Source: Bacillota bacterium
GTDB taxonomy: Bacteria; Bacillota; Sulfobacillia; JAIMAT01
DNA: 33,626 nucleotides
NCBI GenBank assembly: GCA_023511835.1
Contig: JAIMAT010000014.1
Coordinates: 1-33,626 of the forward strand
Direction of reading: 5' to 3'
In this document: piece by piece, positions 1,446 through 13,789 of the stretch
Position numbering within the stretch: position 1 is the stretch's first letter
How the letters are laid out: every line of letters starts with the position of its first letter
Program-made: the position numbers and the translations under genes
Notes under the pieces: generated by a model
Seen by the model: the letters and a program-made list of their open reading frames with translations, nothing else
The model's database searches: none
Told to the model about the DNA's origin: nothing

Positions 1446-1656
1446 AGAGCTCCGTCCAGAGCGCCAGGCTCGCCTCCGCCTCGTCGGCGTCGACGATCTC
1501 GATGGCCTCGCCGGCGTGGACCATGACGAAGTCGCCCACCTGCACCTCGGGCACCAGCGCCACGCCCACCTCGCGCTCGTTGCCGAAGTACTCGACGGTC
1601 GCCATCTGCCGCTCGCGGTCGACGGCGACCACCCTACCGGGTGCCGCCAGGCACAT
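1417..1656 (-). CDS. hypC: HypC, hydrogenase assembly chaperone
   Basis: 79 aa, starting MCLAAPGRVV, the HypC/HybG signature in which Cys2 binds the Fe atom and docks with HypD and the large-subunit precursor. The central part (ATVEYFGNEREVGVALVPEVQVGDFVMVHAGEA as scattered blocks) is the usual small beta-barrel, and the protein ends in an acidic helix (DADEAEASLALWTEL). It overlaps the hypF 3' end by 23 bp and the hypD start by 29 bp, so the three are almost certainly translated from one message. Cytoplasmic chaperone; no odd features. Confidence 0.95.
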   Translation of the reverse strand: MCLAAPGRVVAVDRERQMATVEYFGNEREVGVALVPEVQVGDFVMVHAGEAIEIVDADEAEASLALWTELYGLDDAEGL

Positions 1657-4060
1657 CCTCGACCCACCTCCTGCGCGCGATCACCGCCTGGCCCAGCGCC
1701 AGCCCCCCGTCGTTGGGAGGAAGCAGGACCGGCGTCACCACCCCGATCCCCCGCTCGCGGAGCCTCCGCTCCGCCCGCTCCAGCAGGAGCGGGTTCTGCA
1801 TCGTGCCGCCGGTGAGGATCACGCGGTCGACGCCGCGCTCCTCCGCCAGCCGCCCGAGCGCCTCGGCCAGCGCCGCCGCCACGGTCTCGTGGAAGTCGGC
1901 GGCCAGCCGCTCCGCCGCCTCGCCCGCCAGGCGCCGCTCGGCCAGCTCGAGGAGCGCGGGCCGCAGGTCGAACTCGAGCGGGCCGTGCGGGGCATCCCGG
2001 GCGGAGGCCTCCGCCGAGCCCTCCGCGCCCGGGGCGGCGGGCGCGAGGCGGAAGGGGAGGGGGCGGGGCTGGTAGCCCTCGCGCACCGCCCGCCAGGCCC
2101 TCTCGCCCAGCTCGATGGCGGCCTGGCCCTCGTAGGTGTTGGCCCGCGCGACGCCGAGGAGCGCCGAGACGGCGTCGAAGAGGCGGCCGGCGCTGGAGGT
2201 GAGGGGGGCGTTCAGCCCGCTCCGCACCAGCGCCCGGAGCGCCGCCAGCTCCGCCTCCGGGAGAGCGAGGAGGAGGCGGGCGAGCTCGCTTCCTCGCGAG
2301 GCGCCGAAGGCGTCCCAGAGGTGGCTGACCGCCATCCGCCAGGGCTCGCGGACGGCCGCCTCGCCGCCGGGCATGGGCACGTAGCGCAGGTGCCCGAGCC
2401 GCACGAAGCCCGAGGCGTCGCCCCACAGCACCTCCCAGCCCCAGACGCGGCCGTCCGCGCCGTAGCCGGTGCCGTCCAGCACCGCGCCCAGCGCCGGCCC
2501 CTCCAGGCCCGCCTCGGCCAGCGCGGCGGCGAAGTGGGCGTGGTGGTGCTGGACCGGGACGACGGCGACGCCCCGCTCGCGGGCGAACTCCCGCGCCAGG
2601 CGGGAGACCCGGTAGCCGGGATGGGCGTCGACACCGATCACCTCGGGGCGCACGGCGAGGAGGCGCTCGAAGCGGTCGAGGGCGAGCCGCCAGGCTTCCT
2701 CCGCCTCCAGGCTCTCCATCTCGCCGACGTGCGGACCCGGGTAGGCCTCGGCGCCGCGCAGCAGGCAGAAGGCGTTCTTCATCTCCCCGCCGGCGCCCAG
2801 CGCGGCCGGCCCGTCGGCGAGGCGCCCGCGGAGCGGGACGGGACGGGGCACGTAGCCCCGCGAGCGCCGCTGGAGCTGCGTCCGGCCGGCGACCCGGCGG
2901 ACCACCGAGTCGTCGGCCCGGTTGACGATGGCGCGGTTGTGGAGCAGGAAGCGGTCCGCGATCCGCCCGAGCCGCTCCAGCGCCCCCTCGTTCTCGAACT
3001 CCAGCGGCAGGCCGGAGACGTTGCCGCTGGTCATCACCAGCGCGTCCGGCCCCCCGGCCAGGAGGAGCAGGTGGAGCGGCGTGTAGGGGAGCATGACGCC
3101 CAGCGTCTCCAGCCCCGGCGCCAGCGAGGGCGCCAGCTCCCGCCGGGCGGCGGGCGTCTTCCGCGCCAGCACGATGGGCGCCTCGGGGCTCGCGAGAAGC
3201 GCCTCCTCCTCGGCGTCCAGCTCCACGTAGCGGCGGGCCGTCTCCAGGTCGCGCACCATCACCGCGAAGGGCTTGGCCGGCCGGCGCTTCCTCAGGCGGA
3301 GGCGCGCCACCGCCTCCTCGTTCCGCGCGTCGCAGGCCAGGTGGAAGCCGCCCAGCCCCTTCAGCGCCACGATCTCGCCGCGGGCGATGGCCCGGCGGAA
3401 GCCCTCCAGCCAGTCCTCCTCCAGCCGCTCGCCCGCCGGCGTGGCCAGCCAGACCTCCGGCCCGCAGGCCGGGCAGGCGACCGGCTGGGCGTCGAAGCGC
3501 CGGTCGGCCGGGTCGTGGTACTCGCGGGCGCACGCCTCGCACATGGCGAACTCCGCCATGGCCGTCAGCGGCCGGTCGTAGGGGAGGTCGCGGACGATGG
3601 TGTAGCGCGGCCCGCAGTTGGTGCAGTTGGTGAACGGGTAGCGGTAGTGGCGGTCGCCGGGGTCGAAGATCTCCCGGCGGCAGTCGCCGCAGGTGGCCAG
3701 GTCGGGTGGCACGATCACCTGCCGGCCGGCCCCTCTCTGCGACTCGACGATGCGGAAGCCGGCCTCGCCCTCCACCGTCGCGACCCGCTCCCGCCGGAGC
3801 GAGCGGATCCGCGCCAGCGGGGGTGCTTCCTTCTGCAGGTTTGCCTCGAAGGCGGCCAGCGCCTCGACGCCGCCCTGCACCTCGATGATCACGCCGGCGT
3901 CGGCGTTCCAGACCCGCCCGCCCAGACCCAGCCGCGTGGCCAGCCGGTAGACGAAGGGCCGGAAGCCCACGCCTTGGACGGTCCCGGCGACGGTCAGGCG
4001 CCAGCGCTCTTGCTGAGCTCCAGCCGCTCCCGCGCGTTCCGCACGAGCCAGTCCAGCCAC
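1634..4060 (-). CDS. hypF: HypF, carbamoyltransferase of [NiFe]-hydrogenase maturation
   Basis: About 808 aa. HypF turns carbamoyl phosphate and ATP into carbamoyl-AMP and transfers the carbamoyl group to HypE, the source of the CN ligands. Domains in order: acylphosphatase (VQGVGFRPFVYRLA); two HypF zinc fingers (CGDC...NCTNCGP and CEAC...ACPACGP); a YrdC-like domain (LGGFHLACDARN, RRPAKPFAVMVRD, LVMTSGNVSGLP); and a Kae1-like domain (VVPVQHHHAHFAAALAE, DGTGYGADGRVWGWE, ILTGGTMQNPLLLERA). The open frame extends upstream past 4060, but a GTG at 4060 is preceded by GGGGAGGGGG at a good distance and gives the full acylphosphatase strand, so I use it; this overlaps hypB by about 67 bp. A CTG at 3997 would truncate the first strand. 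Family assignment is certain, the start is not. Confidence 0.93.
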   Translation of the reverse strand: MAGLARAERAGAAGAQQERWRLTVAGTVQGVGFRPFVYRLATRLGLGGRVWNADAGVIIEVQGGVEALAAFEANLQKEAPPLARIRSLRRERVATVEGEAGFRIVESQRGAGRQVIVPPDLATCGDCRREIFDPGDRHYRYPFTNCTNCGPRYTIVRDLPYDRPLTAMAEFAMCEACAREYHDPADRRFDAQPVACPACGPEVWLATPAGERLEEDWLEGFRRAIARGEIVALKGLGGFHLACDARNEEAVARLRLRKRRPAKPFAVMVRDLETARRYVELDAEEEALLASPEAPIVLARKTPAARRELAPSLAPGLETLGVMLPYTPLHLLLLAGGPDALVMTSGNVSGLPLEFENEGALERLGRIADRFLLHNRAIVNRADDSVVRRVAGRTQLQRRSRGYVPRPVPLRGRLADGPAALGAGGEMKNAFCLLRGAEAYPGPHVGEMESLEAEEAWRLALDRFERLLAVRPEVIGVDAHPGYRVSRLAREFARERGVAVVPVQHHHAHFAAALAEAGLEGPALGAVLDGTGYGADGRVWGWEVLWGDASGFVRLGHLRYVPMPGGEAAVREPWRMAVSHLWDAFGASRGSELARLLLALPEAELAALRALVRSGLNAPLTSSAGRLFDAVSALLGVARANTYEGQAAIELGERAWRAVREGYQPRPLPFRLAPAAPGAEGSAEASARDAPHGPLEFDLRPALLELAERRLAGEAAERLAADFHETVAAALAEALGRLAEERGVDRVILTGGTMQNPLLLERAERRLRERGIGVVTPVLLPPNDGGLALGQAVIARRRWVEDVPGGTR

Positions 4061-4683
4061 GGGTCCACCCCCTCCCCGGAGCGCGCCGAGAGGGGAAAGA
4101 CGGGTACCCCGGGGTGGACGGCCTGCAGGTCTTCTCGGACGCGTTCGAGGCGGAAGTCCAGGTGGGGAGCCAGGTCCATCTTGTTGAGCACCACCACGTC
4201 GGCGGTGCGGAAGACCTCGGGGTACTTGGCCACCTTGTCGTCGCCCTCGGGCGTGCTGAGGAGGACCACCCGCAGCTCCTCGCCCAGCAGGTACTCGGCG
4301 GGGCAGACCAGGTTGCCCACGTTCTCGATCAGGAGCAGTCCCCATCCCCGCTGGGGGCGCCCCAGATCGAGCTCGTCCAGCGCGCGCGAGACCATGCGCG
4401 CATCCAGGTGGCAGGCGCCGCGCGTCTCGATCTGGACCGCGCGACCGCCGGCGCCGGCCACGCGGTCGGCATCCCGCGCCGTCTCCACGTCGCCCTCCAC
4501 CACGGCCACGTCGCAGCGCGCGCGGAGACGGGGCAGGACCGCCTCGATCAGGCTGGTCTTGCCCGAACCCGGGGAGCTGAGCAGGTTGACCGCCACCCAG
4601 CCTGCCTCCAGGAGGCGCCGGCGGTTCAGATCGGCCTGGCGTTCGTTGGCGCCCAGCGCCTTGACGCCGATCTCCACCTTCAT
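3994..4683 (-). CDS. hypB: HypB, GTPase for nickel insertion
   Basis: 229 aa from ATG 4683, which has GAGGGTG just upstream; a GTG at 4701 would add six residues and overlap the hypA stop. HypB is a SIMIBI-class GTPase that works with HypA to load nickel into the large-subunit precursor. Seen: P-loop SSPGSGKTS (about residues 36-44), EGDVETARDADR switch region, GACHLDA with Cys91-His92 and GNLVCPAEY with Cys125 (G-domain metal-site ligands in characterised HypBs), and G4 motif NKMD (165-168). There is no N-terminal His-rich stretch and no CxxCGC motif, so it lacks the nickel-storage segment of some homologues. It lies between hypA (starting about 11 bp inside the end of the longer alternative frame) and hypF. 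Confidence 0.95.
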   Translation of the reverse strand: MKVEIGVKALGANERQADLNRRRLLEAGWVAVNLLSSPGSGKTSLIEAVLPRLRARCDVAVVEGDVETARDADRVAGAGGRAVQIETRGACHLDARMVSRALDELDLGRPQRGWGLLLIENVGNLVCPAEYLLGEELRVVLLSTPEGDDKVAKYPEVFRTADVVVLNKMDLAPHLDFRLERVREDLQAVHPGVPVFPLSARSGEGVDPWLDWLVRNARERLELSKSAGA

Positions 4684-4693
4684 CGGCTCACCC

Positions 4694-5041
4694 TCATTCA
4701 CCCTCGATCGAGGCCACCAGGAGCTCTTCGCCCGCGAGGAGCTCGCCGCCCAGCGCGCCGCACGCGGGGCAGACCAGGAGGAAGCCCTCCTCCGGGTGGT
4801 ACTCGCGCCCGCAGGCCGGGCAGCGCGCCCGCGCCTCGCGCCACTCCACCTCCAGCCGCGCGCCGGGCGCGAAGGGCTCGCCCACGCGCAGCGCCTCCCA
4901 GGCGAACTCCAGCGCGTCGGGCAGGACGGCGGTCCGCTCGCCCACCACCATCTCCACCCGCTCCACGCGGCGGAGGCCGGCCTTGGCCGCCTCCTGGCGG
5001 ACCACCTCCACGACGGATTCCATGATGCCGAACTCGTGCAT
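4694..5041 (-). CDS. hypA: HypA, nickel metallochaperone
   Basis: 115 aa, the usual HypA length. It starts MHEFGIMESVVEVV: the amine, the His2 side chain and nearby residues form the square-planar nickel site. The C-terminal half has a structural zinc site of two CxxC pairs (CPAC at 74-77 and CPAC at 91-94) set in CGREYHPEEGFLLVCPACG. It passes nickel to the hydrogenase large subunit together with HypB, encoded just downstream. The ATG is preceded by GGGAGG at seven bases. A 32-bp gap separates it from the unknown gene upstream; this is one of the few non-overlapping junctions in the operon. Confidence 0.95.
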   Translation of the reverse strand: MHEFGIMESVVEVVRQEAAKAGLRRVERVEMVVGERTAVLPDALEFAWEALRVGEPFAPGARLEVEWREARARCPACGREYHPEEGFLLVCPACGALGGELLAGEELLVASIEGE

Positions 5042-5073
5042 CCCGGGCCCTCCCGCCGAGCGAACCGGCGTCC

Positions 5074-5907
5074 CTAGCGCTCGATCCAGCGGAGGCCGTC
5101 CGCCAGGATCTCGCTGACCACATCCAGCCAGGACAGCTGCCTCAATATAGCGGGGTCGAGCTCGTCCGGCCAGGTACCCTGGGAGGTAGGATCGGTGACG
5201 AAGAGTTCCACCTCTGCCGCTGATGGCCGGTGCCAGGCCACCTGGAGCGCCCGCGTGGGGTCGAAGCCAGGATCCAGCTTCGCCAGGGCACTCAGGTCGC
5301 GCCGCGCCTCCACGTCGAAGAGCTCCAGTTCGAGTTCGGGGTCGGCGCCCTCCACCCGCCAGGGCAGGCGCCCGCGACGCCGGTTGCGGAGGCGGCAGCC
5401 GTTCTCCAGCGCCAGCCGCGAGAGCTGAAAGGCCACCTGCTCGTCGCTCGCCTCGCTCAGGAAGCGCCGGTGGCGCGGCCGCGGAGGTTCGCCCCGCCTC
5501 TGTCGCCACCAGCTCGAGAGGAGGCGTTCGGCCGCCTCGGCCGTCTCCTGCGCCGCCCCGGCCACCCGGGGTTCCGCCGCCTCTTCGGCTTCAGCCGCCT
5601 GGCTCTGCCAGAAGGCGGCCTCGAAACGGTCCAGCTCCTCACGGAAGCGCGCATAATCCCGGAGCGGGTCGATGCCTGCCGCCACCAGCTCCTCTTCCTT
5701 CCGCCGGAAGGGCAACTCGTAGCGGTAGAGGAAATCGAGCGCCTCTGCCACCTCCGGCTCGAACTCCTGGCGACGCCGCCAGAGCGCCTCCAGGCTCCGG
5801 CTCGTCCAGTCGAAGTCGGGCTCGCTCCACTGGAATCGCGCTCGAACCCGGGCGCGCGCCTCCGGCAGCCAGCCCTCCACCTGCTCGCGCAAGACCTCCG
5901 CCCTCAC
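5074..5907 (-). CDS. Unrecognised 277-aa protein encoded within the hydrogenase operon
   Basis: I do not recognise this protein. It is soluble-looking, without a signal peptide, membrane segment or cysteine cluster, and very charged. The N-terminal half is rich in Trp, Arg and Glu (DFDWTSRSLEALWRRRQEFEPEV near residue 33, then LPFRRKEEELVAAGIDPLRDYARFREELDRFEAAF) and probably helical. A low-complexity Ala/Glu linker follows (about 124-148), then an Arg-rich patch (RNRRRGRLPWRV) and a final alpha/beta-looking part (AEVELFVTDPTSQGTWPDELD, LSWLDVVSEILADGLRWIER). It does not show the HyaE, HyaF/HupH, HupK or rubredoxin motifs I know. GTG 5907 overlaps the protease stop by 4 bp (GTGA), so it is translationally coupled and plausibly a hydrogenase maturation or stability factor (inference from position only). 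Confidence 0.75.
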   Translation of the reverse strand: MRAEVLREQVEGWLPEARARVRARFQWSEPDFDWTSRSLEALWRRRQEFEPEVAEALDFLYRYELPFRRKEEELVAAGIDPLRDYARFREELDRFEAAFWQSQAAEAEEAAEPRVAGAAQETAEAAERLLSSWWRQRRGEPPRPRHRRFLSEASDEQVAFQLSRLALENGCRLRNRRRGRLPWRVEGADPELELELFDVEARRDLSALAKLDPGFDPTRALQVAWHRPSAAEVELFVTDPTSQGTWPDELDPAILRQLSWLDVVSEILADGLRWIER

Positions 5908-6479
5908 CGGCCGTCACCCCCCTGGCCAGCTGCGCCGCCCCCCAGGAGCCGGACGGGGTCGATCCGGAAGGGCGCCTCCCGCCGGGCCAGCGGCCGGATG
6001 CCGAGCTTCTCCAGCTCATCCAGCACAGCCTGCTCCATGGCCGGCAGGCGCGACTCCACGGCGGGGGAGAGCCCCAACTTCATCTCGCGGATCTCGCCCG
6101 GCTGCATGGCGACCACCACGGTCTCCGGGAGTTCGCCCAGCAGCACCAGCCCTGCCAGCACCTCGAGGATCTCCACGTCGTGGGCCGAACTGACGGCCCG
6201 GCGGGCCACCTGGTGGAGATCCTGGGGCGCGAAGCGGTAGAGGGTGCCAGGCTGGGCGTCGGCCTCGATCGCGTCGGCGATGACCACGGCCCGGTGGCGC
6301 GCCACCAGGTCGAGCAGGTCCCAGCCCAGCGTTCCCCCGTCGACCAGTCGGAGGCCTTCAGGGAAGTCGTAGGCCCGGCGCATGTGGTCCGCGAGATAGA
6401 CGCCCAACCCCTCGTCGCCCAGGAGCACGTTGCCGAGGCCGAGCACCAGGACCTCCCCCGGAGCCTCCGTCCCCATCAT
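5904..6479 (-). CDS. hyaD: Hydrogenase maturation endopeptidase (HyaD/HybD family)
   Basis: 191 aa. It removes the C-terminal peptide of the large subunit once nickel has been inserted, which closes the active site. The N-terminus EVLVLGLGNVLLGDEGLGVYLAD is the M52 peptidase signature, with Glu23 as the first nickel-sensing ligand; VVIADAIEAD supplies Asp69 and SSAHDVEILEVL supplies His100, the other two residues of the HybD Glu/Asp/His triad. A GDLPETVVV-like strand and ...PGEIREMKLGLSPAVESRLP follow, as in HybD. Its expected substrate is the product of the gene at 7298-8989. The ATG lies 3 bp after the cytochrome gene stop; its own stop overlaps the next GTG. Confidence 0.94.
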   Translation of the reverse strand: MMGTEAPGEVLVLGLGNVLLGDEGLGVYLADHMRRAYDFPEGLRLVDGGTLGWDLLDLVARHRAVVIADAIEADAQPGTLYRFAPQDLHQVARRAVSSAHDVEILEVLAGLVLLGELPETVVVAMQPGEIREMKLGLSPAVESRLPAMEQAVLDELEKLGIRPLARREAPFRIDPVRLLGGGAAGQGGDGR

Positions 6480-6482
6480 CCC

Positions 6483-7301
6483 TCACCGCGCCGGATGGAC
6501 CGGCTGGCCACCGGCCGGCGGCGTCACGGGCGGAGCGGGAGGCGCGCGCCGCTCGGACGGCCTGGGGGCGGCTGCCACCCCGGAGACCGGGGCCGGTGCC
6601 CTGCGGAATCCGACGATCATGTTCTCGATGGTTCCGTCGCGGTTCTGGACGGCATTCCAGACGGCCATGTAGACGTGGACGACCACGAAGAGGAGGATGG
6701 CCAGCGCCAGCCAGTGGTGCCAGGAGCGGAGTCCCGCCAGGCCGCCGAAGACCGGGTAGAGGAAGCCCAGCGTGTAGTAGGCGAAGCCGCCCAGGCCCGC
6801 ATGGTAGTTGGCGCCATAGAGCAGCCAGCCGGTCAGCGCGATCAGCACCAGGAGCACGTAAAAGATGGCGTAGGTGACGAACTGGAGGGGCCCGTATCGC
6901 CCCGCCACGTTCCGCTCCTTCCCCTGTAGAAGCAGGTAGTACTTCACCTGGGAGGCCCAGTGGCGCCCCGAGAGGCAGACCCGCCCGTCACGCCACTCCC
7001 GCGCCAGGATGGCGGTGTAGATGCGGACCAGCGTCACCGCGATGAGGGCGAAGCCCACCATCTCGTGCGTCCCGCGTACCAGCCCCACCAGGAAGTTGTC
7101 CCGCGTGGGGATCCCCAGGTTGGTCTGCAGAAACGGGTTGGCGATCTCGAACCCGGTCAGCAGCAGGTAGGTGATGAACAGCACCCGCAGCCAGTGCATC
7201 CAGCGCGTGGTCGGGGAGAACTCCTCCCAGGGCTGCTCCTGCGCGGAGGCCGAGGTGTTCGCCGGCGCCCGTTTCGCCGCTTGGGACTGCACGCCCCTCA
7301 C
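6483..7301 (-). CDS. hyaC: Ni/Fe-hydrogenase b-type cytochrome subunit
   Basis: 272 aa. This integral membrane diheme cytochrome b anchors the hydrogenase and passes its electrons to the quinone pool. Four hydrophobic helices are visible: WLRVLFITYLLLTGFEIA, VGFALIAVTLVRIYTAIL, FVTYAIFYVLLVLIALTGWLLYG and WLALAILLFVVVHVYMAVW. Candidate heme ligands are His in RWMHWLR, RGTHEMVG, SWHHW and VVVHVYMA. The middle loop with HWASQVKYYLLLQGKERNVAG matches HyaC/HupC. The C-terminal ~40 residues (FRRAPAPVSGVAAAP onward) are a Pro/Ala-rich tail not usual in the family. GTG start overlaps the large-subunit stop by 4 bp. Adjacent structural genes support a respiratory uptake role. Confidence 0.93.
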   Translation of the reverse strand: MRGVQSQAAKRAPANTSASAQEQPWEEFSPTTRWMHWLRVLFITYLLLTGFEIANPFLQTNLGIPTRDNFLVGLVRGTHEMVGFALIAVTLVRIYTAILAREWRDGRVCLSGRHWASQVKYYLLLQGKERNVAGRYGPLQFVTYAIFYVLLVLIALTGWLLYGANYHAGLGGFAYYTLGFLYPVFGGLAGLRSWHHWLALAILLFVVVHVYMAVWNAVQNRDGTIENMIVGFRRAPAPVSGVAAAPRPSERRAPPAPPVTPPAGGQPVHPAR

Positions 7302-8989
7302 CCCCGTACCTCAAACTGGGCCAGCTCCTGGCCCCGGGCGTCGATCACGTGGACGGCGCAGGAGAGGCAGGGGTCGAAGGAGTGGATGGTGCGCAGAACC
7401 TCCAGCGGCTGATCGGGTTTGGCCAGCTTGGTGTTCATCAGCGATGCCTCGTACGGGCCGACCTGACCCTGGGCGTCGCGCGGGCTGGCGTTCCAGGTGG
7501 TCGGCACGACCACCTGGTAATTGGCGATCTTGCCGTCCTTGATCTCCACCCAGTGGCCCAGCGCGCCGCGCGGCGCGGCCCCCAGGGCGAAGCCCCGACC
7601 GTCCTTCATCTGGTAGGCGGTGAAGCTCTCCGTTTGACCCTTGCTGATGTTGGTGACCAGTTCATCCACCCATCCCGGCACCGCCTCGGCGAGAGCCACG
7701 GTTTCCAGCATGCGGGCAGCCGTCCGGCCCAGAGTCGAAAACCAGTAAGAAGGCTGCCAGCCCACCTCGCGCTCGAACTGCTGCTTAAGGCCCAGGAAGG
7801 GTTGCGCGCCGGCGGCCGAAGCGATCAGCAGGCGGGCCAGCGGGCCGGTCTCCATGGGTTTGCCATCGTACCTCGGCGCCTTGATCCAGCTGTACTTCCC
7901 GCTCCGCTGGAGCGAGCCGTCGGACTCGAGACCCGTGTAGTGGGGGAGGGTTTCCTCGTCGAAAGGCGGTACGCCCTTCTCCGGCCCCTCGTACCAGGAG
8001 CGCGTGACGTCCTCGGTGATCCGCCTCTCGTCCACGGGATAGACCTGGCTCAGATCGCGGTCCAGGATGACGCCCTTGACGAAGAACTCCTTGCCCTTCG
8101 GCCACGGCTGGTCGTCCAGGGGGAAGCCGCCGTAGTCGAGGAAGTTGGGCACGCCGTTGCCGACCCCGGCCGCCGCCTCGTCCTTGTAAGCCTGTGCCAG
8201 CATGCGCATGTCGGCCAGGTAGGCGTTGAAAACGAAGGGCAGAGCGCTCTTCACCTGGTAGAGAAACTCGCCCACGCGAGACGGGTCTTCCATGTCCATG
8301 ATGGAGGTGACCCCGCCCACCACCACCGTCTGCGGGTGCGGGTTCTTGCCCCCGAAGACCACCATGGCCTTGGCCAGCGGCCGCTGCACCTGGAGCGCGT
8401 CCAGGTAGTGGGAGAGCAGGATCAGGTTCTGCTCGGGCGTCAGCTTGTAAGCGGGATGGCCCCAGAAGCCGTTGGCGAAGGGCCCGAGCTGGCCCGATTC
8501 CACCAGCTGCTTGACCCGGGCTTGGACGGCGGCGTACGTAGCTTGGCTGGCGTTGTAGGGCTGGTCGGTGTATTTGAAAGCCTCGGCCGCTGTCTTGGCG
8601 GGATCCGCCTTGAGCGCCGCCACGGGGTCGAACCAGTCCATGCCGTGCAGCTGGTAGAAGTGGATCACATGGTCCTGAATGAATTGGGCGCCATTCATCA
8701 GGTTGCGGACCAAGCGGGCGTTGGGGGGTACCTGCACGCCCAGCGCGGCCTCCACGGCCTGGGTGGCCCGCTCCAGGTGGACATAGGTACAGACGCCGCA
8801 GATCCGCTGGGCGAAGAGACCCGCGTCGCGAGGGTCGCGGCCCCTCAGGATCAGCTCGATGCCGCGGAAGAGCGTGGCCGCGCTGTACGCGTCGCGCACG
8901 GTGTTGCTCTCGTCCAGGTCCACCTCGATGCGGAGATGGCCCTCGATGCGCGTGACGGGATCGATGGTGACTCGCTTGAGGGCTGGCAC
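7298..8989 (-). CDS. hyaB: [NiFe]-hydrogenase large subunit (group 1 type)
   Basis: 563 aa, the usual length. It carries the NiFe(CN)2CO active site. The start is VTIDPVTRIEGHLRIEVDLD; the L1 motif is RICGVCTYVH with Cys64 and Cys67; the L2 motif is SFDPCLSCAVH with Cys541 and Cys544. His547 is the expected cleavage point, leaving a 16-residue tail (VIDARGQELAQFEVRG) for the protease at 5904-6479. Other family blocks: GHPAYKLTPEQNLILLSHYLDAL, GGKNPHPQTVVVGGVTS, and GRGFALGAAPRGALGHWVEI. The GTG start follows the small-subunit stop by 6 bp, with GGGGAG in the end of that gene as ribosome site. It is co-exported with the Tat-bearing small subunit; no signal of its own. Confidence 0.97.
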   Translation of the reverse strand: MPALKRVTIDPVTRIEGHLRIEVDLDESNTVRDAYSAATLFRGIELILRGRDPRDAGLFAQRICGVCTYVHLERATQAVEAALGVQVPPNARLVRNLMNGAQFIQDHVIHFYQLHGMDWFDPVAALKADPAKTAAEAFKYTDQPYNASQATYAAVQARVKQLVESGQLGPFANGFWGHPAYKLTPEQNLILLSHYLDALQVQRPLAKAMVVFGGKNPHPQTVVVGGVTSIMDMEDPSRVGEFLYQVKSALPFVFNAYLADMRMLAQAYKDEAAAGVGNGVPNFLDYGGFPLDDQPWPKGKEFFVKGVILDRDLSQVYPVDERRITEDVTRSWYEGPEKGVPPFDEETLPHYTGLESDGSLQRSGKYSWIKAPRYDGKPMETGPLARLLIASAAGAQPFLGLKQQFEREVGWQPSYWFSTLGRTAARMLETVALAEAVPGWVDELVTNISKGQTESFTAYQMKDGRGFALGAAPRGALGHWVEIKDGKIANYQVVVPTTWNASPRDAQGQVGPYEASLMNTKLAKPDQPLEVLRTIHSFDPCLSCAVHVIDARGQELAQFEVRG

Positions 8990-8995
8990 GCCCGA

Positions 8996-10297
8996 TCACT
9001 CCCCTTCCTTCGACTGCGTCGGCGCCTTGGGCTCGCCGTCCGGGCCGGCTCCGGCGCGGGTCCACTCCGGAGAGAGCCGGTTGCGGAGCGACGTGGCGAC
9101 GGCATGTGCCGCGATGCCGGCACCGGCGATCCCCAGTGCCCACTCGCCAACCGTGTTGGCCTTGGCGTCGATGCCGATGCCCGCCGCCGAGCCGTACACC
9201 TTCTCGCCCAGCGGCTGCTCGAAGGGGCTCATGGAATCCCAGAAGGCGGGCTCGCTGCAGCCGATGCAGCCGTGCCCGGCGCGGATCGGCCAGGAAGTTC
9301 CCTCGTTCCAGCGGATCAGGGAGCAGTTGTTGAAGGTGTACGGGCCCTTGCAGCCCATCTTGAACAGGCACCAGCCCTGCTCGGCGCCGGCGTCGCCCCA
9401 CTGGAGCACGTACTCGCCCGCGTCGAAGTGCCCGCGGCGTTCGCAGTTGTCGTGGATGCGTCGACCGTACGCCCAGACCGGGCGGCCGTAACGGTCCAGC
9501 GCCGGCATCCGCCCGAACATGACCACGTCCAGGACGGTGCCCACGATGTTGGTGGCGTTGGCCGGGCAGCCGGAGATGTTGATCACCGGGATGCCCAGCG
9601 CCTCACCGACGCCTTTGGCCCCGGTGGGGTTGGGCCCGGCGGCGGGGATGCCCCCGAACGTCGCGCAGCTGCCGACCGCCAGAACGGCTTTGGCTCCGGA
9701 GGCGACGCGGCGTGCCAGCGAAAGCCCCGTCTCACCCCGGGAACCCAGCGTCAGGAAGGCGCCGTTCAGCCCGGTGGGCAGAGCGCCCTCGAACATGGCG
9801 ACGTAGTTGCCGCGCTCCTTCTTCAGGATCTCCTCCAGGCGCGCCTCGGCAGCGGTGCCCGCCGCCGCCATCACCGTCTCGTTGTAGTCGAGGGAGATGG
9901 TGTCCAGGATGAGGGTGGCGAAGTCGGGGTCGCCGGTGCGGAGGAGAGACTCGGTGTTCCCGTCACAGTCGGCCAAGTTGATCCAGACTACCGGAAGGCG
10001 TGTGCTCAGCGTAGCCGCCCTGGCCACCCGCGGCTCGAAGATGGGCGGCAGCATGAGCGTCGCCGTCATCATGGAGCTCCAGCGTATGAAGTCGCGCCGG
10101 GTCAGCCCGGTGGAGAAGAGACGGTCCAAGATGGATCCGCGCCCAGGCTGCGGTTCGACCTGCTCGAGGAGATCGAGGCGCCGGTCGACCTGTTCGGCGA
10201 TCTCCTCCAAGCGTGCCGGATCGCCGGCAGCGGGCTCGCCTTCCAGCGGCCGTTCCTGGACCACCGGGAGGTCGTCGAGCCTGATATCGGTCCTCAC
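8996..10297 (-). CDS. hyaA: [NiFe]-hydrogenase small subunit, Tat-exported, with altered proximal cluster site
   Basis: 433 aa from GTG 10297, which has AGGAGGAGG eight bases upstream. It relays electrons through three Fe-S clusters. A 66-residue charged leader precedes the twin-arginine signal LTRRDFIRW (Arg67-Arg68) and hydrophobic segment, with likely cleavage after ARA near 94. Proximal cluster: Cys111 in ADCDGNTESLL, then GSCATFGG and SGCPANATN; where standard enzymes have the second Cys of CxxC, this one has Asn114. Distal site: RIHDNCERR, QGWCLFKMGCKGPYTFN; medial: FNNCSLIRW and HGCIGCSEPAFWD (three Cys). A weak C-terminal hydrophobic stretch (EWALGIAGAGIAAHAV) may be the membrane anchor meeting the cytochrome. 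The open frame upstream of 10297 has no ribosome site and is not coding-like. Confidence 0.94.
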   Translation of the reverse strand: MRTDIRLDDLPVVQERPLEGEPAAGDPARLEEIAEQVDRRLDLLEQVEPQPGRGSILDRLFSTGLTRRDFIRWSSMMTATLMLPPIFEPRVARAATLSTRLPVVWINLADCDGNTESLLRTGDPDFATLILDTISLDYNETVMAAAGTAAEARLEEILKKERGNYVAMFEGALPTGLNGAFLTLGSRGETGLSLARRVASGAKAVLAVGSCATFGGIPAAGPNPTGAKGVGEALGIPVINISGCPANATNIVGTVLDVVMFGRMPALDRYGRPVWAYGRRIHDNCERRGHFDAGEYVLQWGDAGAEQGWCLFKMGCKGPYTFNNCSLIRWNEGTSWPIRAGHGCIGCSEPAFWDSMSPFEQPLGEKVYGSAAGIGIDAKANTVGEWALGIAGAGIAAHAVATSLRNRLSPEWTRAGAGPDGEPKAPTQSKEGE

Positions 10298-11274: not shown

Positions 11275-11585
11275 CCCGCCCACCGCCGACGGGCCGCCCT
11301 CCCCCGACGGAGGGCGCGACGCCGGCCCCGCCCTGGACGTCACGTCCACGAGCCCGCAGAGAGCCGTCCAGATTCCCCGCCCGTCCCCGCCGCGGCGCTG
11401 CGCCCGCCGGCTTCGGGTTCGGGAGCCCGAAGAAGGCCGCTATGGACCTCCGAAGATCACCCGTCCGGGCGATGGACGTCCGCTTTGAGAATCCTTATCG
11501 TCTAGGTATCGGTAATGCGAATCGTTCTCACGGGGCCGGCAGCGCCCAGACGCCGCCGCCCCGGGGAAGCGCGGGAGGCGGCGCC
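11275..11585. other. Intergenic region: terminator-like hairpins, then the feo control region
   Basis: The 311 bp hold two GC hairpins without T runs (GCCCTCC/GGAGGGC at 11296-11315 and CTTCGGG/CCCGAAG at 11411-11432), which may end the upstream gene, and then the Fur-box pair at 11486-11530 before feoA. No gene seen. Confidence 0.5.
11486..11530 (+). promoter_or_regulatory. Tandem Fur-box-like operators upstream of feoA
   Basis: Two 15-bp sequences resemble the 7-1-7 Fur box TGATAATNATTATCA: TGAGAATCCTTATCG at 11486-11500 (11 of 14 specified positions) and TGCGAATCGTTCTCA at 11516-11530 (10 of 14). They are exactly 30 bp apart start to start, close to three helical turns, in a locally AT-richer island in very GC-rich DNA. 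The first box covers a possible -35 (TTGAGA, 11485-11490), with weak -10 candidates just downstream (TATCGG at 11507 or GGTAAT at 11511). Iron-bound Fur would repress the feo operon here. Agreement and placement before feoA make this convincing by eye, though not proven. Confidence 0.7.
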
Positions 11586-11864
11586 ATGGACGGTGGGCTG
11601 CGGGCGGAAGGCAGGGGGCTTCCCTCGCTGGCGGCGCTGGGCGACGGGGAGGAGGGGCGCATTGCCGCCCTGGGAGGTCCGGCGCCCTTCCGCCGCCGCC
11701 TGGCGGCGCTGGGCCTCCTGCCCGGGAGCCGCCTCCGCCGGCTGGGCGCCATGCCGGCGGGTGGCCCGCTCATGGTGGAGGTGGGCGGGACGCGCCTCGC
11801 ACTCCGCCGGCGCGACGCCGCGGCGATCCTCGTGGAGCCGCGCGGAGAGGGCGGGGCGGCATGA
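11586..11864 (+). CDS. feoA: FeoA, SH3-like partner of the ferrous iron transporter
   Basis: 92 aa. ATG 11586 has GGGAGG seven bases upstream; the open frame runs further up but that part includes the operator region. FeoA is a small cytoplasmic SH3-like protein needed for full FeoB activity. The family pattern is clear: LAALGDGEEGRIAALGG, then RRRLAALGLLPGSRLRRLG (the RLxxLGLxPG motif), AMPAGGPLMVEVGGTRLALRRRDAAAILVE. The stop overlaps the feoB start by 4 bp (ATGA), so expression is coupled. Expected to be iron-repressed through the upstream Fur-like boxes. Confidence 0.92.
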   Translation: MDGGLRAEGRGLPSLAALGDGEEGRIAALGGPAPFRRRLAALGLLPGSRLRRLGAMPAGGPLMVEVGGTRLALRRRDAAAILVEPRGEGGAA

Positions 11865-13789
11865 GCTGCCATCTGCCGCCGGCCGGGGCGACGGCTGGCG
11901 CCTCCGCGGCCGCCGCCTCCGCCGTCGCCGCGGGGGGCACCGTCCGGGCGGAGGCGGGCGCGCGGCGCCGCTGGCTCCTGGCCGGCCCACCCAACGCCGG
12001 CAAGACGACGCTCTTCAACCTGCTCACGGGCGGCCGGCGCGAGGTGGCCAACTGGCCCGGCAGCACCGTGGAGCGGGCGGCGGGGCGGCTCCGTGCGGGC
12101 GAGGGGCTCGCGACGGGCGAGGTGGAGGTGGTCGACCTCCCCGGCGTCTACAGCCTGGACGCCCTCTCCGAGGAGGAGCGGGTCGCCCGCCGGGCGCTCC
12201 TGGAGGAGGCGGACGAGGCGCTGGTGCTGGTGGTGGCCGACGCCTCGCGGCTGGAGCGGAGCCTGGCGCTCGTCCTCGAGGTGGCGGAGGTGGCGCCCGC
12301 CGTCGTCGTGGCGCTCAACATGCTGGACGTGGCGGCGGCGGAGGGGAAGGCCGTCGACGCGGCGCGCCTGGAGGAGGAGCTCGGCCTGCCGGTGGTGCCG
12401 CTGGTGGCGCGGCGGGGCGAGGGCGTGCGGCGCCTGGTGGAGGTGGCCGCCGCCTCCGCGCGCGAGCCGCGCCCGCGCCGCGCGAGGCCCGCGCCGCCGG
12501 CGGGCGAGGAGGAAGCCTTCCGGCGCGCGGAGGAGCGCTTTCTGCGCGTGCAGGAGCTGGTGCGGGAGGCCGTGCGCGAGGGCGGGCGGCGGCGGACGAC
12601 GGCGGAGCGCCTCGACCGCTGGGCGCTCCACCCGCTCGCTGGCTACCTGATCCTGGCGGCCGTGCTGGGCGCGGTCTTCGCCGTCGCCTTCGTCGCCTCG
12701 GCGCCGCTCTCCGAGGCCGTGGGCCGCCTGCTGGACGGCCTGGGCGGGGCGCTGGCGGCGCGGCTCGAGGCGGCCGGCGCGCCCGTCTGGCTGGGCGGCC
12801 TGGTGCGCGACGGGCTCCTGGGCGGGGCGGGCGCGGTGCTCGCCTTCGTCCCCTACCTGACGCTCTTCTACGTGATGCAGGAAGCGCTGCAGGACTCGGG
12901 CTACATGGCGCGCGCCGCGGTGCTGGTCGACCGGCTGATGGAGGCGGTGGGCCTCCACGGCAAGGGCTTCTTCGCGCTGGCCACGGCCTACGGCTGCAAC
13001 GTGCCGGCCATCGGCGCCACGCGCGTCCTGGAGAACCCGCGCGAGCGGATCGCGCACCAGCTGGTCATCCCCTTCCTGCCCTGCAACGCCCGCATCGGCG
13101 TCCTGCTGCTCCTGACGGCCGCCCTCTTCCCGGGCGCGCGCGGCGCCCTGGCCTTTGCCGGGTTGATGCTCATCAGCCTCGGGGTGGTGGCGGGCGTCAG
13201 CCTGCTCCTCCGCCGCACCCTCCTCCCGCGCGAGGAAGCCCCGCTGGTGATGGAGCTTCCTCCCTACCACCTGCCCACCTGGCGGAACGCCGTGCTGCCG
13301 GCGCTCCACCACGTCGGCCTCTTCGTCCGCCGCATCTGGGGCTTCATGCTCTGGGCGACGCTGGCGCTCTGGGCGCTGGGCGCACTGCCGGCGGGCGCGC
13401 CTCCGGAGCAGAGCTACGCCGCCCGGCTGGCGGGCGCGCTGGGTCTGCTGGGCGCGCCCTGGCACCTGGACGGGCGGCTGGTGCTGGCGCTGGCGGCCGG
13501 CTTCGTGGCCAAGGAGACGACGCTGGGCACGCTGGCCGTCCTCTACGGAAGCGCCGCGGCCGGCGGCCCCGCGGCGGCGCTGGCCGCCTCGGTCCGCCCG
13601 CTGGCCGGCTTCGCCTTTCTCGTCATCTACATGCTCTACACGCCCTGCCTGGCCACCGTGGTGGCGCTCCGCCAGGAGTCGGGCAGCCGGCGCTGGGCGG
13701 CCCTCTCGGTCCTCCTCTCGCTGGCGGTGGCCGGCCTGGCGGGCTGGCTGGTGGAGGCGCTGGGCGCGCTGGCGGGGTGGGCGCCGTGA
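11861..13789 (+). CDS. feoB: FeoB, GTP-dependent ferrous iron permease
   Basis: 642 aa, somewhat shorter than the 700-770 aa of many FeoBs. Inner-membrane Fe(II) importer. After an Ala-rich leader of about 40 residues comes the G domain: G1 GPPNAGKTTLFN, switch region NWPGSTVE, G3 DLPGVYSL, G4 NMLD (usual for FeoB), then an Arg/Glu-rich linker. The membrane part has two Gate-like repeats: DSGYMARAAVLVDRLMEAVGLHGKGFF with ATAYGCNVPAIGATR, IPFLPCNARIGVLLLL, and later FVAKETTLGTLAVLYG and MLYTPCLATVVALRQE. These conserved Cys/Pro segments line the transport path. It overlaps feoA by 4 bp upstream and feoC by 4 bp downstream. Confidence 0.96.
   Translation: MSCHLPPAGATAGASAAAASAVAAGGTVRAEAGARRRWLLAGPPNAGKTTLFNLLTGGRREVANWPGSTVERAAGRLRAGEGLATGEVEVVDLPGVYSLDALSEEERVARRALLEEADEALVLVVADASRLERSLALVLEVAEVAPAVVVALNMLDVAAAEGKAVDAARLEEELGLPVVPLVARRGEGVRRLVEVAAASAREPRPRRARPAPPAGEEEAFRRAEERFLRVQELVREAVREGGRRRTTAERLDRWALHPLAGYLILAAVLGAVFAVAFVASAPLSEAVGRLLDGLGGALAARLEAAGAPVWLGGLVRDGLLGGAGAVLAFVPYLTLFYVMQEALQDSGYMARAAVLVDRLMEAVGLHGKGFFALATAYGCNVPAIGATRVLENPRERIAHQLVIPFLPCNARIGVLLLLTAALFPGARGALAFAGLMLISLGVVAGVSLLLRRTLLPREEAPLVMELPPYHLPTWRNAVLPALHHVGLFVRRIWGFMLWATLALWALGALPAGAPPEQSYAARLAGALGLLGAPWHLDGRLVLALAAGFVAKETTLGTLAVLYGSAAAGGPAAALAASVRPLAGFAFLVIYMLYTPCLATVVALRQESGSRRWAALSVLLSLAVAGLAGWLVEALGALAGWAP

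Follow-up and report, generated by a model that had tools for sequence, protein, structure and literature searches.

Asparagine at the fourth proximal-cluster position in a branch of group 1b-type [NiFe]-hydrogenases from Bacillota and Campylobacterota

The question raised by this locus is what stands in for the fourth cysteine of the proximal iron-sulfur cluster in a [NiFe]-hydrogenase small subunit, and which kind of cluster such a site could hold. The stretch of DNA analysed, here called the window, covers 33,626 nucleotides of a Bacillota contig (JAIMAT010000014.1). Its hynA/hydA gene (8996-10297, minus strand, GTG start) encodes a [NiFe]-hydrogenase small subunit of 433 residues with matches to PF14720, PF01058 and TIGR00391 (hydA, 437 bits), and the translation contains VVWINLADCDGNTESLLRTGDP. 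The first-pass annotation had placed an Asn where the fourth proximal Cys is expected, and both its coordinates and its reading were upheld by the codon and the translation: within the motif ADCDGNTESLL, Asn114 is encoded by AAC at 9956-9958 on the minus strand (GTT on the plus strand). The other ligands are present, as had also been claimed. Translation and alignment located the three proximal cysteines, namely Cys111 of CDGN, the first ligand (9965-9967), Cys211 of GSCATFGG (9665-9667) and Cys244 of SGCPAN (9566-9568), all on the minus strand, together with intact distal (H282, C285, C310 and C316) and medial (C325, C344 and C347) ligands.

The TIGR00391 and PF14720 profiles and the complete distal and medial ligands place the protein among group 1 small subunits. 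The twin-arginine motif TRRDFIR of a signal peptide was read from the sequence at 10082-10102 (minus strand) and is kept in the non-fused relatives; as TRRDFIRW at residues 66-73 it constitutes, by motif, a twin-arginine export signal. A hydrophobic C-terminal anchor helix was likewise read at residues 386-404 (9086-9142, minus strand), and the matching region aligns with the C-termini of HoxK/HyaA. The predicted structure of the mature small subunit reached a mean pLDDT of 64, with a poor C-terminal half.

The same strand carries the remaining genes of the operon: hynB/hydB for the large subunit (7298-8989; PF00374, 668 bits; L1 QRICGVCTYVH and L2 DPCLSCAVH), hynC for a b-type cytochrome subunit (6483-7301; TIGR02125, 196 bits), a hupD-type maturation protease gene (5904-6479; PF01750), a 277-residue frame with no Pfam or NCBIfam match between hupD and hypA (5074-5907), hypA (4694-5041, start approximate; profile match), hypB (3994-4701; TIGR00073), hypF (1634-4000, start approximate; TIGR00143, 768 bits), hypC (1417-1656; PF01455) and hypD (225-1420, start approximate; TIGR00075). 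In its gene content, this set corresponds to a typical periplasm-side H2:quinone oxidoreductase. S. acidophilus likewise has an unassigned gene before hypA. Near the hydrogenase operon, the divergent feoA and feoB genes for ferrous iron uptake were found at 11442-13789 on the plus strand. The hydB gene is the sole full NiFe large subunit gene in the assembly; a second match, on another contig, covers just 67 positions. The host genome also encodes three COX1-family (haem-copper) oxidases and two cytochrome b proteins, and O2 respiration is therefore possible.

The relationships of the small subunit were examined in an alignment of 183 distinct sequences from Bacillota, Campylobacterota and plasmids, in which the window gene was counted twice (as the window and as L001). 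In the small-subunit tree, the window sequence clusters with Sulfobacillus-like and Campylobacterota HydA sequences (100/100), and its nearest described relatives are classed as group 1b in PMC10080006. The window enzyme is accordingly classified here as group 1b-type, on the basis of its nearest relatives and the published classification rather than of HydDB. A careful tree was built from 48 sequences after removal of the four motif columns. In it, the 31 1b-type sequences formed one set (support 100/100), and all 22 CxGN rows of 1b type fell on one branch, recovered in 89% of bootstrap trees with a support of 90/90, which lies below the star threshold. The Asn motif thus behaves as the conserved clade that the first-pass annotation had proposed to look for. 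The branch has three parts: Sulfobacillus-like Bacillota including the window, Campylobacterota with CAGN, and Campylobacterota that have CTGN or CSGN and a small subunit fused to a flavoprotein. Its sister group comprises nine CTGC HydA sequences of Campylobacterota. In a quick tree of 98 rows, the CTGC set lay among the CxGN sets at an open fork, leaving the order of the sets open, and therefore a single origin or fixation of the Asn swap within this branch of group 1b-type enzymes is favoured but not proven. The change may have gone from Cys to Asn or from Asn to Cys.

The closest described systems share most of the anatomy of the window. The group 1b enzymes of Sulfobacillus and Candidatus Hydrogenisulfobacillus filiaventi R50 (PMC10080006; S. 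acidophilus plasmid CP003180) belong to the same branch, and their gene set resembles that of the window in its cytochrome b, HupD, HypA and HypB. The order of the hyp genes differs: hypF, hypC and hypD follow hypB in the window, whereas in S. acidophilus hypF, hypC, hypD and hypE precede hynA. The HydABC enzymes of Campylobacterota, characterised in Wolinella, Helicobacter and Sulfurospirillum, fall in the same 1b-type set of the tree and have a Tat motif and a cytochrome b partner. The main HydA form sampled in that phylum keeps four cysteines (CTGC), while a second set has CAGN, compared with CDGN in the window. The main HydA set also rules out the Asn as a signature of all group 1b.

Two side observations were made on signal peptides in these relatives. 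Several Campylobacterota genomes (L004-L009, L165-L167, L075 and L076) carry a CxGN small subunit at the end of an open frame of 816-871 residues. In L004, an Arcobacteraceae MAG and the one case in which the domains were checked, the open frame at 4546-7074 joins the small subunit to a preceding pyridine-nucleotide flavoprotein (PF07992) and BFD-like [2Fe-2S] domain (PF04324), and the large subunit follows immediately downstream. The Tat region of L004 is degenerate (KNEYNKWISMMTAS), which suggests that the enzyme is cytoplasmic and was derived from an exported one. L043, probably Ca. H. filiaventi R50, has a 1b-type small subunit with a clear TRRDFLKW twin-arginine motif, in contrast with PMC10080006, where the R50 1b small subunit is stated to be without a Tat signal.

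Across the 183 rows, the fourth proximal residue was Cys in 117, Asn in 44, Asp in 18 and His in 1, counts that mirror the sampling and not natural frequencies; one more row has Asn but opens the motif with Ser, and two rows were unaligned there. Group 2a-type rows have CxGN and group 1h-type rows CDGD. One Bacillota branch mixes Asp, Asn and a single His at this position (L131, L135, L048, L138, L141 and L142, and also L145, L152, L154, L155, L158, L050, L162, L163, L051, L055, L060 and L125). The extra cysteines of the six-cysteine [4Fe-3S] type (group 1d) are absent from the window protein, which has Gly at both supernumerary positions (CTCC; Cys after GSC). Group 1h, represented by C. necator HofK, shares the arrangement of three cysteines and one non-cysteine at the same proximal position, but the residue there is Asp (CDGD), a charged ligand, whereas Asn was found in 22/22 rows of the branch; the 1h-type rows are also far away in the tree. 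The comparison with group 1h made in the first-pass annotation was correct as to three Cys and one Asp, but that Asp aligns with Asn114 and not with Asp112 (CDGD in L067, L200, L201 and L206). Group 2a, with Huc and cyanobacterial HupSL, has Asn at the same position as the window. Nevertheless, its rows form a separate branch far from the window, which has a Tat motif, unlike the group 2a enzymes of Sulfobacillus and cyanobacteria (PMC4378227, PMC6616624), and HupS has Gln in place of the distal His (PMC6616624), where the window keeps H282.

The swap had been put forward as a possible new variant, a claim overtaken by earlier publications. Mohammadi et al. (2016, PMC5364354) described HupS of mesophilic Methylacidimicrobium as having one proximal cysteine of the four exchanged for Asn, and reported Asn or Asp at the proximal position in group 1f and Asn in group 2a; those Methylacidimicrobium enzymes (HupS/HynA) were later classed as group 1b (PMC6813726). 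They share the Asn with the window but come from Verrucomicrobiota. Yonemoto et al. (2014, PMC4070099) listed the Cys-to-Asn change at this position for Nostoc HupS, and the corresponding C81N variant of HynS from Alteromonas (A. macleodii) was functional. A partial literature search, in which absence weighs little, did not find the swap described in the Sulfobacillus-like/Campylobacterota branch, nor the Asp110/Asn247 pair considered below. The window enzyme is real, conserved and functional-looking, with a known ligand swap.

In the main reading, to which we give a probability of about 0.85, the protein would belong to a group 1b-type H2:quinone oxidoreductase with a three-cysteine proximal site. 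The Tat-exported small subunit, the large subunit and cytochrome b would make up a complete enzyme of this type, accompanied by its maturation genes. After cleavage of H2 at the NiFe site, electrons would pass from the proximal to the medial and distal clusters, then to cytochrome b and the quinone. Three cysteines would hold the proximal cluster, and Asn114 would occupy its fourth corner.

Asparagine is a weak neutral ligand, and therefore the likeliest forms of the proximal cluster would be [3Fe-4S], or [4Fe-4S] capped by Asn or water. In the structure of the group 1h enzyme from C. necator, the 3Cys-1Asp proximal cluster is reportedly of the [4Fe-4S] kind. A [3Fe-4S] cluster, in which the fourth iron is absent, would be the form adopted with a probability just short of even, by analogy with Huc: HucS carries Asn at the position aligned with Asn114, and cryo-EM of Huc found three [3Fe-4S] clusters, in agreement with EPR (PMC10017518). 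The rival reading is a proximal [4Fe-4S] cube in which the Asn114 side chain or water binds the fourth iron, that is, a near-ordinary, site-differentiated cluster. We regard it as a serious contender, though somewhat under an even chance, given that the proximal cluster of Nostoc punctiforme HupS, bound by three Cys and one Asn, was reported in a review to be [4Fe-4S] (PMC6616624), and that the C. necator group 1h enzyme provides a precedent in its unusually coordinated 3Cys-1Asp cluster, linked to O2 insensitivity (PMC6813726). Against the cube, Huc is the sole structure located with Asn at this position, and it was modelled as [3Fe-4S]. The [3Fe-4S] form is given a slight edge because the Huc precedent rests on structure. 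A 3Fe cluster, raised as one option in the first-pass annotation, is consequently a live possibility, which Huc supports and HupS weakens. The literature found describes no spectroscopic characterisation of a CxGN enzyme of group 1b.

The authors of the Huc study tied its 3Fe clusters to a higher potential and to feasible uptake at low H2 (PMC10017518). By the same analogy, a 3Fe form in the window enzyme would give the first relay step a higher potential and bias catalysis towards H2 uptake; we infer which cluster it holds, at what potential, and how O2 tolerance would be affected.

An unlikely alternative is that another residue (Asp112, Asp110, Glu170 or Asn247) serves as the fourth ligand, Asn114 being just space-filling. 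Asp112, proposed in the first-pass annotation as a substitute ligand, is unlikely on conservation, since position 112 varies between D, A, T and S in this branch (CDGN, CAGN, CTGN and CSGN). Asp110 (9968-9970, minus strand) and Asn247 (9557-9559, minus strand) speak for this alternative. In the alignment neither varies within the CxGN branch, and almost all of the Cys relatives compared have other residues there: Glu dominates at position 110 among Cys rows, being the residue of CxGC/CTCC relatives, and position 247 is Ser or Ile in nearly all of them. The branch has Glu170 throughout, as do nearly all Cys relatives. However, Asn114 is itself strictly conserved, as if functional. Asp110 adjoins a proximal ligand and Asn247 lies three residues after Cys244, and these two residues may be second-shell partners of Asn114. 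Group-specific residues were also sought in the large subunit, where none passed the 95% filter.

The Asn is shared by close and distant relatives of the window. CDGN was found in 7/7 Bacillota rows of the branch, whose relatives are 90-67% identical to the window. The motif recurs in two further assemblies of the same genus (~90% identical; one of them and the Bu54 record may represent a single genome), in both Sulfobacillus thermotolerans and S. acidophilus (67%), and in further genomes belonging to the class; the small subunits of Sulfobacillus and of the probable R50 row are 67-68% identical to that of the window. The Asn codon is AAC in some orthologues and AAT in others and therefore it is the residue, not the DNA, that is conserved, which points to purifying selection on Asn114. 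A sequencing or assembly error, for which close homologues with CDGC would have spoken, or a decaying gene can be dismissed almost entirely, as every close orthologue found has CDGN, the same residue occurs in independent assemblies, complete genomes included, both synonymous codons are in use, and the reading frames and operon are intact.

The whole of group 1b usually carries the label 'oxygen-sensitive'. In Methylacidimicrobium, H2 consumption requires O2 to be below 40 µM (PMC6813726). For R50, its authors saw no physiological evidence for O2 sensitivity of the 1b enzyme, but this organism also has a group 1h enzyme, which confounds the comparison (PMC10080006). These relatives give no consistent guide to the O2 behaviour of the window enzyme.

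The broader proposal combining these elements is a tentative one, and we consider it rather more doubtful than probable: a periplasmic 1b-type branch marked by Asp110/Asn114/Asn247 would have a [3Fe-4S] proximal cluster independent of Huc, a 3Fe-3Fe-4Fe relay, a raised first potential and a changed O2 response, while the sister HydA of Campylobacterota would keep four cysteines. If true, closely related enzymes of a single class would carry different cofactors beside the active site. The fourth proximal residue is labile across hydrogenases, yet the HydDB classes rest mainly on large subunits (PMC5037454), and the natural CxGN/CxGC pair inside one class offers a clean system for asking what role the fourth ligand plays.
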